Positions 2,427 through 24,415 of a stretch of 33,797 nt of DNA are shown here, piece after piece (within the stretch, counting starts at the first letter, position 1; the number at the start of each line of letters is the position of its first letter). The notes under the pieces are model-generated. The model saw only the letters and a list, made by a program, of their open reading frames with translations, had not been told where the DNA came from and did no database searches. The position numbers and the translations under genes were made by a program. The DNA is from Candidatus Nealsoniibacteriota bacterium (GTDB lineage Bacteria > Patescibacteriota > Minisyncoccia > Minisyncoccales > PWPS01), in the NCBI GenBank assembly GCA_003560665.1, contig PWKK01000003.1:1-33797 (forward strand), given 5' to 3'.

Positions 2427-5400
2427 ATGAAAAAAACAGCTCTTACAATTGGATTGCTTTTTTTCCTCCTCATAATTCCCCTTTTTGCCGCCGCTCAAAC
2501 GGAAGTTACTTATCCTGCAATTCCCGGAGTTCTTTCTCCGCAAGAGATTATCGAGACGGCGGAAACCGAAGCGGACATTCTCCCCCTTTTTATTGCCTAT
2601 CTTCTCCGCCTTCTTCTCGTTGTTTCTGTTGCCGTTGTTGTCCTCACTATTATTTATGGAGGATTTCTCCATTTTCTCTCTGAAGATGATATAGAAAAGA
2701 AAAAAGCGGCAAAAAGTTGGATTTTAAGTGCTTTGCACGGAGCGCTTATCATTTTCTTTTCCTATTCCATCCTCCACGCTATCAGCCCGAGGCTTGCCGT
2801 TTTCCAACTGACCGATTTAACAGAAAGAGAAAGAGGAACACAAGTCGATCTCGAGTGGAGGCTGAGAGACACTTACTTTCAAGTACCGCTGGGTCTCCTG
2901 GTAGAAAACGCTGCCTTGAACGTAAACGCAAGAGATAAAATTTACGATGTTCTTGATGCTGTAGACGACGCAGAAAACGTAGCGAATGTTATTGTAGATG
3001 GTGGAGAGCAACTTCTGGAAATCATAGAAGAGTGTCCCGAGGGAATGAGTTGTGATTGTGACGAACCTTACTTCTACCCTAGTCCAATACCTTTCTTCCC
3101 CCGCTTTCCACATATGAGACCATCAAACACTCTCATAATACCCGAGGATATAGATCGAAGATCTGTGATGCCATCTGACGCTCCTCACGGACTACACATT
3201 GTTTTGATGGAAAAAGCCATTGAGAAAATAAAAACCGAGATTGAGATTACAGGGGAAAACGAATTTACAAGAGAACTGAAAATAGTTGTTGAAAAACTGG
3301 AAGCATTGTTGGACGCAAATCCGACAACCGAATCTCTCAGGGATATAAGAGAAGAACTGGACAATCTCCTTCAAAAACACAAAATAAGAGTAAAAAATCT
3401 CAACAAAGAAACAAAGAATGCTCTAGAAGGACTGTTAAGCGCCCTTCCTTTGTCGAGAACCGGCTTTAACGACAGCACTTATTACGCTCAATTTGAAAAC
3501 CCGTGGGGGCCTATGCCCTTTGGAAGAACCTCTACTTTCGCAAACGCAGGATGTTACGTTGTTTCGGTAGCTATGGTGATAGATACCCTTCTCGATCAAA
3601 AAGTAACCCCCATCGACGTCCGTAATTACTCTCTTCCCTATATCGTAAACGGTACCACTTACGGTGTAGTCCAAAACGCAGCCAATCAGTATCCGGAACT
3701 GGAAGCAGAAAAACTGCCCACTATAGAAGCAATTTTGGGAGCATTAGATCAAGGACATATGGTTATTATGGGAGGTACAGGCCCTCCTCACAATATTTCA
3801 AGATCCGGAGGTGGTCACGCTTATGTCTTTACCGGAATCGACCGGGATAAGGGAGTGGTATACCGAAGCGATCCGGGTCAACCCTACTGGCAAACCCTAC
3901 CGATTCACGAATTTAAGAGAAACAATCCCACGATGGCAGACACTATTTACAGAAGAAGTGGAGCAGAGCAAGAAGACGATTTTCTCTACGCTACTTTAAG
4001 TAATCTGAAAAATTTTCTTCTTCCCATTGCAGAAGAAAGAATAAATTTTCTTTTCTCGCTTTTTGCAGAAATATTTAAAACGGAAGAAGTCCAAGCTTCT
4101 TGCTGCCCGCCGTGTCCTGAAATTTCTCCAGCCGTCCGAATGAAAATCGGAGAAATTAGAGCTTATATGGGGCTGTTTAGATATCACCTTTTAAAATTAA
4201 TTGACACTAAGGCACCTTTTGAAGAAAATCTTTTCCAGCTTTACAAGACAAGCATGATAAAAACCTTGGGGGCAAAAAATCTCGTTACATACACCACTCT
4301 TCTTTTAAACCGAAGGCACCACGAAAGAGAGGAGATAGACATCACCACCTACGAAGAATCAAAAGAAATTGTCTCTTATTACTGGAATTTGTGGTATTAC
4401 TGGGATTGGAGAAAATGGATTGAAGATACTATTTATAAAGTAAAAATAGAGGGAGAAATCGTGGAAGAAAACGATCCGGTCAGTTTTTATCTGGAAACCC
4501 CAAGACACGAGAAAATTATAAGAGATGCCGAAAGATTGGCAAGAAGAGAAAACTGGGAAACAAGGAGAAGTATTCCCCCTTACGTCTGGTGGTATTTTAA
4601 CAGATTTACTGAACTCCCCCCGATATTACCCTTCAACGCCCGCCAAGATAAAAGGGAAATTCCTCCATTTATCTGGTGGGCTATTGTAGAAAAACCGATG
4701 TCCATCGGTCCTGACGAAGGAAGATACCCTCCTTGTCCGTGTCCCGAACACCCCCCCTGTCCCACTTGGCCTTTAACAAGCGGATTAATTGATAAAGAAA
4801 GTCCTCTTTACGCCTTACGGCAAAGCGCTGAAAAAATGATAGAAGATCTTTCCCAAGGAATGGTTGCCGATTACGTAACTGCTACCGAAAACATTCCTCA
4901 AGACATCTCTCCTGAAGAATTCGAAGAAATGTTCGACTCCCCCGCCGAGTTTTTAACCTGTGGAATGGAAATTCCTGTTGGAGAGCCGATCGATATTATT
5001 TGGAATTATTACACTGAGCTTTTGGACACTATTGACGATTATCTTGTGGCCGGAGTATGTTTTTATGAACTACAAGAAATAATGAACCGGCTCGCAGAAG
5101 GGTGCTCTTGCCCGTGTAGTTCTTGTAGTGGTTGTGACGAAGATCCTCCTTACTGCGGAAATTGTGTGCTAACCTGCGATAAAGAGGAGATATACAGAGC
5201 TTACGAAGACGTCTTGGCTCAAAGAGAGGTCTTAGCGGAAATTAGAGATAAAATTGCGTATCTGGTTACGGGCTATTTCAACATTGAAACGGAAAACGTA
5301 TGCCACCCCTTAAATCAAGATATAAGGAGCGAGGGAGAAAAGGCAGTCTGTGCTGGAGGAGGAAGTGTAACCATAACCAAACACGAACTGATAACCAGAA

Positions 5401-5621
5401 AACTGAATTACTCAAGAGCCGAGCTCGACGCATGCGTGACAAGGCCCGAGCACTTTGAAGATACTCTTGAAGGAAAAAGAGCGGGAAAAATTCCATTATT
5501 CGGGCCGATTGTTGAAGAAGAGGATCTTCCTCGTTACACAAAAACAAAAAGAGACGGTGCTGTTGTTAACACACACGATCTTAACTGGTTTTGTTGTTCC
5601 TACACCTCGTTGGAAGAATAA
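2427..5621 (+). CDS. Large exported protein: signal peptide, T4SS-pilin-like TM pair, internal C39-like cysteine peptidase domain, Cys-rich C-terminal part
   Basis: TM module LLRLLLVVSVAVVVLTIIYGGFLHFLSEDDIEKKKAAKSWILSALHGALIIFFSYSIL; peptidase-like YYAQFENPWG...NAGCYVVSVAMVID...GGHAYVFTGIDRDKGVVYRSDPGQP; Cys clusters SCCPPCPE, PPCPCPEHPPCP and CSCPCSSCSGCDEDPPYCGNCVLTC. Confidence 0.7.
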   Translation: MKKTALTIGLLFFLLIIPLFAAAQTEVTYPAIPGVLSPQEIIETAETEADILPLFIAYLLRLLLVVSVAVVVLTIIYGGFLHFLSEDDIEKKKAAKSWILSALHGALIIFFSYSILHAISPRLAVFQLTDLTERERGTQVDLEWRLRDTYFQVPLGLLVENAALNVNARDKIYDVLDAVDDAENVANVIVDGGEQLLEIIEECPEGMSCDCDEPYFYPSPIPFFPRFPHMRPSNTLIIPEDIDRRSVMPSDAPHGLHIVLMEKAIEKIKTEIEITGENEFTRELKIVVEKLEALLDANPTTESLRDIREELDNLLQKHKIRVKNLNKETKNALEGLLSALPLSRTGFNDSTYYAQFENPWGPMPFGRTSTFANAGCYVVSVAMVIDTLLDQKVTPIDVRNYSLPYIVNGTTYGVVQNAANQYPELEAEKLPTIEAILGALDQGHMVIMGGTGPPHNISRSGGGHAYVFTGIDRDKGVVYRSDPGQPYWQTLPIHEFKRNNPTMADTIYRRSGAEQEDDFLYATLSNLKNFLLPIAEERINFLFSLFAEIFKTEEVQASCCPPCPEISPAVRMKIGEIRAYMGLFRYHLLKLIDTKAPFEENLFQLYKTSMIKTLGAKNLVTYTTLLLNRRHHEREEIDITTYEESKEIVSYYWNLWYYWDWRKWIEDTIYKVKIEGEIVEENDPVSFYLETPRHEKIIRDAERLARRENWETRRSIPPYVWWYFNRFTELPPILPFNARQDKREIPPFIWWAIVEKPMSIGPDEGRYPPCPCPEHPPCPTWPLTSGLIDKESPLYALRQSAEKMIEDLSQGMVADYVTATENIPQDISPEEFEEMFDSPAEFLTCGMEIPVGEPIDIIWNYYTELLDTIDDYLVAGVCFYELQEIMNRLAEGCSCPCSSCSGCDEDPPYCGNCVLTCDKEEIYRAYEDVLAQREVLAEIRDKIAYLVTGYFNIETENVCHPLNQDIRSEGEKAVCAGGGSVTITKHELITRKLNYSRAELDACVTRPEHFEDTLEGKRAGKIPLFGPIVEEEDLPRYTKTKRDGAVVNTHDLNWFCCSYTSLEE

Positions 5622-5634
5622 CTTCATTCTTCTT

Positions 5635-6705
5635 ATGCAGAAAATTTACATTTTTATCTTTCTTTTTCTACTATCGCTTGTCGGACCGATAGGTTTTGTA
5701 GGTGGAGAAGAAACTATTACATTGAATAATTATTCAGACATAGAAAAAATGAGTTCCCTGGCCCTTGAAACGGGATCTTTTCCCACTTACATTCTATACA
5801 TTACATATCTTTTGATAGCCGTTGGGATAGCAGTTTCCATTATTTCTCTTATTGGGGGTGGTTTAGCATGGATGACATCCGTTGGAAACCCCATCAAAAC
5901 AAAAGAAGGAAAAGAGCGTATCATCTCCGCTATCATTGGCCTTGTCATCGTTCTTTCTTCTTTTCTTTTTCTTTCCGCTATCAATCCAGAGTTAATAGAG
6001 ATTGAAGAACCAGATGTTGTCGAAACTGTGGAGTTCTTTCCTCCGGGAATTTATCTTTCAAAGAAAGAAACAATCCCGGATATCACGGGAAAAGAGGATT
6101 TGGAAAAGTTCGAAGAAGATATCCATCGAACAACTTTTTCCTTAAGAAATTTGGAAGAAAAGGGCGTTGGAGTCAAAACGCTCCGCATTGCCAATCATCT
6201 TGATGAAAAAGGAAATATTCTTAACTATTATTACGGTGTAGTCTTGCATGAAGATCGCGCCTTTCGAGGAAGGTGTGAGTTCTTCCTGAACGACACCCCG
6301 AAGCCTATTGATTTTTCCGTAAGTGGAGAAAACATTTCTTCTGTTACTGTCATGCGAATAAATAAAAATCCCTCAATGGAAGGTTATGTAGACGTGTATG
6401 AAAAACCTGATTTTGACGACAACTTTTCTTTTGAGAGTCTTGATCTTTTTACAAATGATTTTCTACGCCTTTCCGTTCCTGAGGTCTGGTCAATAGACAT
6501 TAAAGGAAACTACGGGATTATATTGTCTTCGGGGGGGACGTGGGAACAAGCAAACAATGGGTGTGGTGTATTTTTAGATTTTAAGCCGATACCCGATCTG
6601 AAGGGTCACCATATGAACAAATGTTCGTTATGGAGTGGGCCACCTTGGTTTTCCTCATATAAGTCATGTGCCACGCACTACGCCGTTTTCCCTCTTCTTA
6701 GATAA
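5635..6705 (+). CDS. Exported protein with T4SS-pilin-like TM module and C-terminal extracytoplasmic domain
   Basis: Preferred ATG at 5635 (MQKIYIFIFLFLLSLVGPIGFVGGEE, signal-like) rather than the ORF-call start at 5455; TM pair YITYLLIAVGIAVSIISLIGGGLAWMTSVGNPIKTKEGKERIISAIIGLVIVLSSFLFLSAINPEL. Confidence 0.65.
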   Translation: MQKIYIFIFLFLLSLVGPIGFVGGEETITLNNYSDIEKMSSLALETGSFPTYILYITYLLIAVGIAVSIISLIGGGLAWMTSVGNPIKTKEGKERIISAIIGLVIVLSSFLFLSAINPELIEIEEPDVVETVEFFPPGIYLSKKETIPDITGKEDLEKFEEDIHRTTFSLRNLEEKGVGVKTLRIANHLDEKGNILNYYYGVVLHEDRAFRGRCEFFLNDTPKPIDFSVSGENISSVTVMRINKNPSMEGYVDVYEKPDFDDNFSFESLDLFTNDFLRLSVPEVWSIDIKGNYGIILSSGGTWEQANNGCGVFLDFKPIPDLKGHHMNKCSLWSGPPWFSSYKSCATHYAVFPLLR

Positions 6706-6710
6706 GTTGT

Positions 6711-7583
6711 TCATTCAAGGTTTATTTTCCACCTATTGTCTGAAACCACTTCCAAAAAAGCCGTATCCCGGGGAATCTGAACCGTTCCTTCGTAGACATC
6801 GGTTGTCCTCACAAGAGACTGATACTGGTGATTAATGGCGTTGACTTCAAAATTCTTGGGTTCATGACCCACCTCCAGGTTGCCGCGAATAACTGCTTTT
6901 TCCGAATCTCCTTCGATTCGCAGAACCTCTCCCCTTACACCCTCTACTTCTCCGGGTACCTCGATTACCCTCGCAGAATTTAAAGAAAGCACTTCAACTT
7001 TCCAAGGACCTTCAGCTTCGATCTCCAGCTTTCTTGTCCTTCCACCAGGATCCAGTAGAATTCCTTCATAAGAAGAAAACGTATTCACAAATATGCGCGT
7101 AAGCTCACCTCCCCCCCAAAAAGTATGTGCTTCTGTATACCCCGTAACCCGAAAATGCTTTTCCTCCTCGTTTCCTTGGATATAAAAAAGGGTGTGTCTT
7201 TCGCCTAATCCCTCTACTCTCATTTCTTGAGTGTCTCTACCCGTATAGACAATAACATCGTACTCTTTTCCTGTTTCCGGATTTGTTTTTCTTTCTCTCT
7301 CTCCTTTTATTATTTTATCAAGAAAATCGTCTACTGTTTCGTCTTCATTGTCTTCCCAGCTGTCAAGGTCATCCTCTTCTTCTGTATCTTCTACGTCTTC
7401 TCTGTCATTGATATCAGTTGTTTCGTGATCGTCATCGGGTAGAGGGGGCTCTTCTTCAATACCGCTTTGAAAAAGAAAAAAAAGTAAAATCACCACCAAA
7501 AACCCCATACCAGCAATTAAATACTTTCCCTTGTCAGAATCAATTAACTTTCTAATTGAGTTAAAAAGGTTTTTGTTTTCCAT
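6711..7583 (-). CDS. Membrane-anchored protein with acidic linker and two related C-terminal beta-rich repeats
   Basis: Single N-terminal TM (YLIAGMGFLVVILLFFLF), long D/E-rich linker, then two segments sharing YEG...LE(I/V)....WK(V/I). Confidence 0.55.
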   Translation of the reverse strand: MENKNLFNSIRKLIDSDKGKYLIAGMGFLVVILLFFLFQSGIEEEPPLPDDDHETTDINDREDVEDTEEEDDLDSWEDNEDETVDDFLDKIIKGERERKTNPETGKEYDVIVYTGRDTQEMRVEGLGERHTLFYIQGNEEEKHFRVTGYTEAHTFWGGGELTRIFVNTFSSYEGILLDPGGRTRKLEIEAEGPWKVEVLSLNSARVIEVPGEVEGVRGEVLRIEGDSEKAVIRGNLEVGHEPKNFEVNAINHQYQSLVRTTDVYEGTVQIPRDTAFLEVVSDNRWKINLE

Positions 7584-7618
7584 AAAATTTTCTTTTTATT
7601 TTACTCTTATTTTAATTG

Positions 7619-7647
7619 AGTATAACACAAGGAAAACGACAAGACAA
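7619..7647 (-). promoter_or_regulatory. Promoter for the 290-aa membrane protein
   Basis: Minus strand TTGTCT (7642-7647), 17-nt spacer, TGT-TATACT extended -10 (hexamer 7619-7624). Confidence 0.5.
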
Positions 7648-7680
7648 ACTCCAGCTTTCCATTTATAATTTTACTTTAAA

Positions 7681-8862
7681 TTACAAAAAATGCTTTTTCC
7701 TAATCTTTTTGTGATAGCTTAGTGCAAATCTGTGTGCTTCATGCTGCACGCGAAGTAAAACGTCTCTCTCAAATCCTTTAATATCCCCTGTAATCTTCTC
7801 TTTTCTCCCACGCCCCCTCCTTCCGACGCCCACTACGGGAATATCAAAACCTTTTTCGTTTAAAGCCTCTTTGGTTGTACTTACCTGCCCCTTCCCTCCA
7901 TCGATAACCATTAGAGAGGGCAACGGCCAACTTTTCTGAAGTCTTCTTTGAATTATTTCTCGAATCATCTTCGTGTCATCTGACCTTGTAACCTCTTTTA
8001 TTTTAAAAAGCCTATACTGCTCCTTTTGCGGAAAGCTTCCTTTAAAGACGACCATCGACCCCACCGAAAAATTTCCTGCAATATTTGAAACATCATACCC
8101 CTCTACTCTTATAGAAGATACTTCCTCTTTTTTCTTTCCGATAAGCGCTGTTTCTTGGATATAGGAGAGAGCGTCTATTTTTCTTTTAATATCTTTTGCT
8201 TTTTCGTATTCTAACTTTTCGCTTTTCTCTCGCATTTGTCTCTCAAGCTCCAGTATGATTTTCTTTTTTCCTCCTTTGAAAAAAAGTTCGATATTCTCAA
8301 TATTTTTGATGTAATCCTTCTTACTGACTTTGCCGACACACGTTCCCGGACAAAGTCCTATCTGGTAATGAAAACAGGCGACCCCTTTCTTTATTTCTTT
8401 TTTTGTATGAGTAGAATAAGGAAAAATTTTTCTTATTATCTTAAGAGCTTCTCTTATTTCCGCAGAGTAAACAAAGGGACCAAAAACACTTTTTTTTTCT
8501 TCTTCCTCTAACTTTTTTCCTCTCCTAAGAATCACTCTTGGATAATCTTCTTTTGTAATGACTACATGCAAAAAACTTCGGTCATCGTTTTCCTTTATGT
8601 TGTAAAAAGGTTTTTTTTCTTTGATAAGTTCCGCTTCTCTGATTAACGCTTCAATAACCGTCTCTTTTGTTTCATAGTTTATACTCTTCGTATCACCAAT
8701 AATCCCTCTGCTTTTTTTATCCTTTCCGATAAAATAGCTTTGAACTCTTCTTTGAAGATTGGCCGCCTTGCCGATGTAAATCGCATCACCTTCCTTGTTC
8801 TGAAAGATATAAACACCGGGGGTTTTCGGTATTTTTTTTATTTCATCTTTTATTCTTTTCAT
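7681..8862 (-). CDS. uvrC: Excinuclease ABC subunit C (short form)
   Basis: GIY-YIG (TPGVYIFQNKEGDAIYIGKAANLQRRVQSYF), UVR motif (LEYEKAKDIKRKIDAL), endonuclease motifs VEGYDVSNIAG, VIDGGKGQ and HEAHRFALSYH; ends directly after the last, 393 aa. Confidence 0.9.
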   Translation of the reverse strand: MKRIKDEIKKIPKTPGVYIFQNKEGDAIYIGKAANLQRRVQSYFIGKDKKSRGIIGDTKSINYETKETVIEALIREAELIKEKKPFYNIKENDDRSFLHVVITKEDYPRVILRRGKKLEEEEKKSVFGPFVYSAEIREALKIIRKIFPYSTHTKKEIKKGVACFHYQIGLCPGTCVGKVSKKDYIKNIENIELFFKGGKKKIILELERQMREKSEKLEYEKAKDIKRKIDALSYIQETALIGKKKEEVSSIRVEGYDVSNIAGNFSVGSMVVFKGSFPQKEQYRLFKIKEVTRSDDTKMIREIIQRRLQKSWPLPSLMVIDGGKGQVSTTKEALNEKGFDIPVVGVGRRGRGRKEKITGDIKGFERDVLLRVQHEAHRFALSYHKKIRKKHFL

Positions 8863-23286: not shown

Positions 23287-23329
23287 TCAACAATAAAGAA
23301 ATGGCAAAAATATGTAGTTAGTGATTCTT

Positions 23330-24415
23330 ATGGGGAAATACCGTAAAAAAGAGTCAAAATTAAACGTAAAACAGATACGAAAAGTTGGCATTATTTTAAT
23401 TTTTCTATTTAGCTTCATTTTGGCATTCTTGCCTCTTACGACGATAAATGCGGCGACCCTACATATATCGCCATCTTCCGGTGATTATAATATTGACCAA
23501 ACCTTCCAAGCAGAAGTGCTTGTCTCTTCTTCTAATCGACCGGTTAGCACTTATTCGAGTGTCATATCTTTCCCCCAAGAAAATATTGAAGTTGTTTCTA
23601 TCTCTCGCTCAGGATCAATCGTTGATTCTTGGTCTCAGGGACCAAATTTTTCCAATTCTCTTGGGGAAATATCTTTTAAGGGGAAAACTTTTGGCTCCGG
23701 TTTTCAGGGAACAGATGGAAGAATTATTACTCTCACCCTCCGTACAAAAGAAATTGGGACTGCCATCCTTAGACCCACAAAAAGTGCCATACTCGCTCAC
23801 GACGGAACAGATGCAAATATTTTGCATTTTGCTTACGATGCTAGATATGATATTAAAATGGTTTCAGGAACAGAGCCAGAGCCAACTCCAGAGCCGACTC
23901 CAGAGCCAGAGCCAACTCCAGAGCCGACTCCAGAGCCAGAGCCAACTCCAGAGCCGAGTCCAGAGCCAACTCCAGAGCCGAGTCCAGATCTAGAGCCAGA
24001 GCCAACTCCAGAGCCGAGTCCAGGGCCAACTCCAGAGCCGAGCACAGATCTAGAGCCAGAGCCAGAGCCAACTCCAGAGCCGAGTCCAGATCTAGAGCCA
24101 GAACTAGAAACAGATCCGAGCACAGAGTTGGTAGACAGCCCCCCATCATCGCCAGCGTTTTTTCCAACAATTGATTCTGAGCAACAAGTATTATTTATCG
24201 GTAATATAACGATAGATTATACAATTCTGATATTTGCTATGGTTGCATTATTTGTGGTAATCATAGTATTCATTTTTTACCGTTGGGCCAGAGTTAATCT
24301 TTGGCAAAAAAGACTAAAGTTCAAGAACAAAAAAACAGACGAGCCTGTTCCCAAAGCACTTAAAGAATTACGCGAAGAACTTGAAGAGCAGAGGCGGAAA
24401 AGACTACAAGGGTAA
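23330..24415 (+). CDS. Cohesin-domain-like surface protein with Pro/Glu/Thr/Ser-rich stalk and C-terminal TM
   Basis: Signal peptide, [55 protein letters not shown] (cohesin-like fold pattern), EPTPEP repeats, TM then basic tail. The GTG at 23321 is the ORF-call start; ATG at 23330 preferred. Confidence 0.7.
23873..24124 (+). repeat. Short tandem repeats (GAGCCA/ACTCCA units) encoding an [10 protein letters not shown] stalk
   Basis: Degenerate repetition of gagccaactccagagccg... visible directly. Confidence 0.9.

Follow-up and report, generated by a model that had tools for sequence, protein, structure and literature searches.

Why would a protein with a secretion-type pilin anchor also carry a cysteine peptidase, and what would that peptidase cut? 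This question is raised by a gene in the window analysed here, a 33,797-nt stretch of Candidatus Nealsoniibacteriota bacterium DNA (GCA_003560665.1, PWKK01000003.1), numbered C11 among the contigs of the 679-kb genome of this tiny Patescibacterium, which probably depends on a host. Its forward-strand open reading frame (ORF) 2427–5621, which opens with ATG and encodes 1064 amino acids, combines an export signal, a pilin module, a C39-like peptidase, a helical domain and a cysteine-rich C-terminal domain. We refer to it as gene A-B; in related families, its counterpart is two separate adjacent genes, A and then B. A first-pass annotation of the letters alone had proposed a signal peptide, a pilin-like transmembrane (TM) pair, four catalytic motifs and about 25 cysteines, all of which we recovered, the cysteines numbering exactly 25. 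On balance, gene A-B is probably a membrane-tethered cell-wall peptidase linked to a type IV secretion system (T4SS), performing a VirB1-like job with a pilin-fused architecture that is not that of VirB1.

Pfam assigned Peptidase_C39_2 to residues 351–483 (29.9 bits, cut-off 24, E = 9.7e-7)—the single occurrence of this family in the genome—within a domain that Pfam, profile comparison with the PDB, an AF2 model searched with Foldseek, and conservation place at residues 334–512 (3426–3962). The motifs YAQFENPWG, NAGCYVVSVAM, GGHAYVFTGID and RSDPG are all found and yield Gln355 (3489–3491) at the oxyanion-hole position, Cys376 (3552–3554) as the predicted nucleophile, His464 (3816–3818) as the predicted general base and Asp482 (3870–3872) as the third triad member. 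Across all nine homologues compared, down to 16% identity, Gln, Cys and His do not vary and the fourth position holds Asp, once Asn, as expected had the annotation read a genuine active site. A single-sequence phmmer search of the domain against the PDB gave a chance match only; with a nine-sequence profile, the C39-like structure 3erv (4e-7), the PCAT protease domain (2e-4), phytochelatin synthase and AvrRpt2 were matched. The predicted fold agreed, the top Foldseek matches being papain-like/C39 peptidases (probability 1.00, E = 3e-4), although the query model was weak (pLDDT 58, built from three sequences). By sequence, then, the domain belongs to the papain-like C39 cysteine peptidases.

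Relative to the 70%-identical orthologue in a genome of the same genus (G004), the ratio of nonsynonymous to synonymous substitution rates (dN/dS) was 0.15 over the whole of gene A-B, 0.12 over the C39 domain, 0.07 over the C-terminal domain, 0.36 over the linker (residues 210–335) and 0.08 over the partner gene described below, all rough values because synonymous sites are near saturation. The ratios for the gene and its C39 domain argue that the coding sequence is not a product of chance, and they indicate that the window copy is kept by purifying selection despite its position away from T4SS genes.

The remainder of the protein reads as an anchor and a scaffold. Hydrophobic segments over threshold lie at residues 1–29, 47–86, 98–117 and 371–389, of which the last is the C39 catalytic-helix region. 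The first, ending in FAAAQT, contains the predicted signal peptide (residues 1–23; 2427–2495; cleavage site placed by eye). The second and third form a VirB2/T4SS-pilin-like TM pair with a lysine-rich loop between (residues 47–117; 2565–2777), suggested by hydrophobicity and by a sub-threshold Pfam match; the homologous module of a paralogue on contig C13, 52% identical over residues 1–218, exceeds the T4SS_pilin cut-off of Pfam. Alignments and an N-terminal profile delimit a conserved stretch 3′ of the pilin module (residues 118–210; 2778–3056) with a (V/I)PxG motif and the first cysteine pair. Beyond the peptidase, and just after the cysteine cluster SCCPPCPE, follows a conserved helical middle domain (residues 551–709; 4077–4553), also captured by a profile, and finally the cysteine-rich C-terminal domain (4941–5600), the equivalent of gene B, which contains CSCPCSSCSGCDEDPPYCGNCVLTC. 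Cys376 is the sole cysteine within the C39 domain and the other 24 lie outside it, giving a content of 2.35% versus a mean of 0.78% in 275 unrelated ORFs of the same loci; inspection by eye only noticed neither heme CxxCH nor a known cluster motif among them.

This scaffold is not unique to the window. The gene pair—gene A-B and its partner, gene C (5635–6705)—is present three times in the genome: here, on C13 and on C20. The C13 copy (4009–8097, 1362 aa) begins 96 bp downstream of virB4 (TraG P-loop match, E = 4e-28), itself preceded by prgI and a virB4-N gene, and the C20 copy (3023–5914) adjoins jag-yidC and is truncated by the contig end, so that its N-terminal part is missing. Both keep the middle domain (47–49% identity) and the C-terminal domain (56–58%), C13 also retains the N-terminal part, and each is then followed by a homologue of gene C. 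In place of C39, which Pfam did not find in either, both carry Peptidase_M23 (E = 1e-19 in C13, 1e-26 in C20) with the metal-ligand motifs HxxxD and HxH intact; the genome has three confident M23 domains, two of which sit in these scaffolds. M23 is a family of wall peptidases. The C13 copy (L026:4009-8097) also bears acidic tandem repeats, FIDSPWWDRDDDDDD, between its pilin module and its M23 domain.

How widely the arrangement occurs was surveyed across the order, where 76 of 100 relatives were matched, chiefly in the N-terminal region; the profiles were iterated from a small set, and remote assignments are less certain than those by Pfam. In 40 fetched loci, which contained 41 A-type proteins, we observed a recurring order of a virB6-like gene, a small gene, prgI, virB4-N, virB4 and often a small membrane protein, followed by gene A (pilin module, cysteine-rich), gene B (cysteine-rich) and gene C (pilin module plus a C-terminal domain), and then by jag-yidC on the opposite strand, with genes A and B usually fused in the window's genus. 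A same-strand virB4 lay at most 1.5 kb upstream in 21 of the 41 A proteins and a gene-C homologue downstream in 28, a count that missed the window itself due to an ORF start call. The protein type that the annotation had picked out does, in other words, stand beside VirB4, PrgI and VirB6 in relatives and in one paralogue of the same genome. That holds for C39-bearing versions as well: besides the M23-bearing C13 paralogue, VirB4-machine genes accompany C39-bearing A proteins within virB4 operons of other families (L068, L079 and L081) and, in the same genus, a pilin-C39 protein of G005 in a cluster adjoining virB6, prgI and virB4.

When 40 A proteins were scanned with Pfam, 35 matched T4SS_pilin (E ≤ 0.01), eight M23, seven C39_2 and two the lamin-tail domain (LTD), and one had a weak match to SLT_3 (E = 0.0027). 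No A protein of the 40 neighbourhoods combined C39 with M23. By eye, we assign the two LTD counts to the pilin-module proteins of L074 and L075. A lysozyme-like A protein in L077 and an M15-like HYGG...HxH motif in L078, L088 and L085 were likewise suspected by eye, received no confirmation from Pfam and were not counted. Cysteine content averaged 3.4% for A proteins and 6.0% for B proteins (background 0.8%). The B proteins had no informative Pfam match, barring one separate M23 gene included in the set, and the C-terminal profile also matched the region 3′ of the pilin module in many A proteins, which suggests a repeated helical cysteine motif. In one neighbourhood (L084:1036-4002; G036:C3), an intein that contains a LAGLIDADG endonuclease (PF14890, E = 3.8e-20) interrupts the VirB4 gene close to the P-loop. 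A genome scan with the cysteine-rich C-terminal domain as query named mostly Candidatus Nealsonbacteria metagenome-assembled genomes labelled B1Sed10 or CSSed10, which we take to be soda-lake sediments; two contigs titled Chloroflexi and Diapherotrites (L100, L101) bear the Nealsonbacteria-type domain and are probably mis-binned.

The peptidases appear to change places on this scaffold. Within the genus, the gene at the yidC-jag locus has M23 as its catalytic domain in three genomes (G000, G002, G004) and C39 in a fourth (G003). The gene-C partners of all four cluster in a tree (support 95/90); the G003 peptidase domain, in turn, clusters with the C39 domain of the window (support 98/86). Either C39 moved between paralogues or an ancestral C39 was replaced, as far as these trees can be read; the clade of the yidC locus emerged from the partner-gene tree alone, trees of the N-terminal or C-terminal domain by itself being largely unresolved, and the C39 domains of A proteins form no single supported clade. 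Peptidases of this type also occur on a second chassis: class-level genomes of several families (L136–L148) encode exported coiled-coil proteins in which a C-terminal C39_2 replaces the usual wall hydrolase, and one of these proteins falls narrowly short of the Pfam cut-off for a PcsB-type domain. Among the T4SS genes that we modelled, none stood beside the two PcsB-like C39_2 loci inspected. The PcsB-like coiled coil is a chassis of wall hydrolases, and PcsB/EnvC-type proteins resemble gene A-B in being exported with an interchangeable terminal wall-hydrolase domain, now including a C39_2 version in this class, and differ in having a coiled coil rather than a pilin anchor.

We propose that the gene pair would form an accessory module of the Patescibacterial T4SS, with which it may be physically associated. 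Both proteins would be exported and held in the membrane via their VirB2/T4SS-pilin-like TM pairs, their long C-terminal parts lying outside the cell. Gene A-B would display its C39 peptidase on a stalk or scaffold rich in putative disulfides, and the enzyme would most likely cut stem-peptide or cross-link bonds, either in the wall of the cell itself, at the point where the machine passes through, or in that of a contacted partner. In the sister copies this job would fall to the M23 (LytM) domains; in Gram-positive T4SSs it is done by VirB1-type proteins. A wall substrate is suggested because M23 is the alternative on the same scaffold, because C39_2 also sits on the PcsB-like coiled coil, and because there is a precedent in the virus enzyme PeiR of the Methanobrevibacter provirus phi-mru, whose C39 peptidase domain hydrolyses pseudomurein (PMC6189367). 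PeiR thus offers a C39-family domain that acts on cell wall, yet it is a viral lysin with pseudomurein-binding repeats that its authors describe as only distantly related within C39, and we set it beside gene A-B by description (PMC6189367).

Among Gram-positive T4SSs, the closest parallels are PrgK (pCF10), TraG (pIP501) and Orf14 (Tn916), membrane-anchored extracellular hydrolases (LytM/M23, CHAP) of VirB4/PrgI-type machines; VirB1 proteins of this group are membrane-anchored and carry SLT/MUR, CHAP and LytM domains (PMC12857230). Gene A-B departs from them in its anchor (a pilin-like TM pair), its cysteine richness, a C39 domain in place of CHAP and a catalytic domain that differs between paralogues. 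Pfam found no SLT/muramidase, CHAP or NlpC/P60 domain in it, and because SLT is absent we do not class it as a VirB1.

Several observations weigh against a T4SS-linked wall peptidase. Neither the window copy nor its G004 orthologue lies next to T4SS genes. The pilin module of gene A-B itself scores under the T4SS_pilin (PF18895) cut-off (18.6 versus 26.6 bits), and confidence in the AF2 model for the C39 domain is low, as given above. The best-studied C39 enzymes, the bacteriocin-leader peptidases, cut proteins at a double glycine and not peptidoglycan. More than half of the 40 A proteins have no hydrolase that Pfam recognises. Finally, the catalytic domain lies 5′ of the middle domain in the window, G003 and C13 and 3′ of it in C20, G004-C19 and G002; because these insertion points differ, the C39/M23 exchange holds at the protein level and not as an exact cassette. 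What stands of the annotation's surface or secretion-channel protein, given that the conservation check held, that the fold matches, though from a low-confidence model, were papain-like/C39 and that the protein type adjoins VirB4, PrgI and VirB6, is a secretion-linked surface protein that would cut a wall or partner substrate; nothing in our data made it part of the channel. The C39 hydrolase is present as proposed, as one of several interchangeable domains and not as the defining feature of the system.

The best-surviving alternative, to which we give perhaps one chance in five, is that the domain processes proteins for the machine, as a peptidase that matures pilin-like subunits or other exported proteins, as the PCAT C39 does with bacteriocin leaders. 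Its closest solved relatives by profile and fold do include the PCAT/ComA leader peptidases (6mpz, 3k8u), with which, as with 3erv, it shares the papain-like fold and the Gln-Cys-His-Asp order, and gene A-B would be tethered among other exported pilin-module proteins. It is, in contrast to PCAT/ComA, exported and devoid of a fused transporter, Pfam having found no ABC domain in its 1064 residues, which sets it apart from PCAT-type leader peptidases; its substrate is probably different too. Nor did a Pfam scan show an ABC transporter among most flanking ORFs, the sole ABC ATPase domains being those of UvrA, and no double-glycine leader gene adjoining the pair was seen among the window ORFs. The peptidase would moreover be extracellular and not face the cytoplasm, on a scaffold that bears M23 wall-peptidase domains in its paralogues, with C39 recurring on the PcsB-like chassis in the class.

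Less probable still is a host-directed protease whose exposed domain would cleave surface proteins or wall of a partner during attachment, independently of channel assembly. Methanogenic archaea are proposed hosts of Nealsonbacteria. The window copy is an extra one, away from T4SS genes, and the Foldseek matches of its C39 domain include secreted papain-like toxins; methanogen-parasitising Paceibacteria also strongly express extracellular proteins, T4SS-pilin-domain ones included (PMC10936435). Yet in other families the copy next to virB4 has M23 and C39 variants too, which suits a housekeeping role of the machine, and no immunity gene was recognised. That the C39 domain is catalytically silent and acts in binding, like an adhesin, a role suggested for certain inactive homologues of VirB1 (PMC12857230) and in keeping with the non-enzymatic domain of its partner, is improbable in view of the near-invariant catalytic residues in nine diverse homologues, the low dN/dS of the domain and the intact M23 metal ligands of the paralogues.

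The annotation had also named ORF 5635–6705 as a linked component. The pair recurs, and gene C (forward strand, 356 aa) has a pilin module of its own, with a T4SS_pilin-like TM pair at residues 48–121 (5776–5997; Pfam 28.1 bits, cut-off 26.6); its nature as a pilin-crystallin fusion had gone unrecognised. For residues 120–356 (5992–6702), an AF2 model (pLDDT 79) predicts a beta/gamma-crystallin-like domain pair, and all 50 PDB fold matches listed were crystallins or crystallin-derived. PF00030 matched five of 25 gene-C homologues (best E = 4e-5), gene C of the window itself being unmatched, and a gene-C profile matched Protein S (4e-4). The C-terminal part is thus, by prediction, a double Greek-key crystallin fold that resembles the microbial beta/gamma-crystallins Protein S and spherulin 3a in fold and profile and differs from them in its fusion to a T4SS pilin module; displayed at the surface, it would probably serve binding or stability. 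A full-text search, whose term also matches 'crystalline', found no report connecting a crystallin domain with a T4SS, and we know of no earlier one. Elsewhere in the window, a reverse-strand cluster upstream (212–2123) contains genes for an ArsR-type regulator, a DsbA-like protein with CPAC and an exported, membrane-bound thiol protein with CPVC, and possibly serves oxidative folding of the cysteine-rich neighbours; the protein encoded by a forward-strand ORF (23321–24415) is repetitive and matches trypanosome PARP-type acidic repeats below the threshold.

The secretion machine is not new: it is the Patescibacterial MPF_FATA-like T4SS with PrgI, TrsD-like, VirB4 and VirB6 components and PF18895 pilins, as set out in the main text of Quinonero-Coronel et al. 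(2025, PMC12102498), whose TrsD-like component is probably the virB4-N gene here. That text reports that Paceibacteria have VirB1 homologues close to virB4, some of which bear M23; it also reports VirB2-like pilins and arrays and describes no pilin-hydrolase fusion, cysteine-rich A/B proteins, C39 variants or pilin-crystallin partners (PMC12102498). The available portions of the literature surveyed contained no description of the pilin-hydrolase fusion, the domain exchange or the crystallin partner, and we found no account of a T4SS that combines pilin, wall hydrolase and adhesin.

In the sole species of Patescibacteria where this was tested, the T4SS was essential (PMC12102498, PMC11665869); VirB1 seems to be missing from most Patescibacteria that have VirB2-like pilins. 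Pilin-hydrolase fusions are a candidate answer to how such cells open their own or a host's wall, and our comparisons suggest that parts of the secretion machine serve these microbes as carriers of wall-cutting enzymes that can be interchanged. From the exchange of M23 for C39 comes a prediction that can be tested for a C39 family so far anonymous, and with the pilin-crystallin partner there is a second module on display. If the wall-cutting reading is true, part of the question of how these episymbionts breach or hold their partners would come down to an assay of a purified enzyme. More speculatively, and at about one chance in four in our estimation, the T4SS may serve across the order as a display platform, with pilin-type subunits presenting exchangeable extracellular modules (M23, C39, lamin-tail, crystallin and uncharacterised cysteine-rich domains) that would be assembled at the cell surface and open or grip the host wall.

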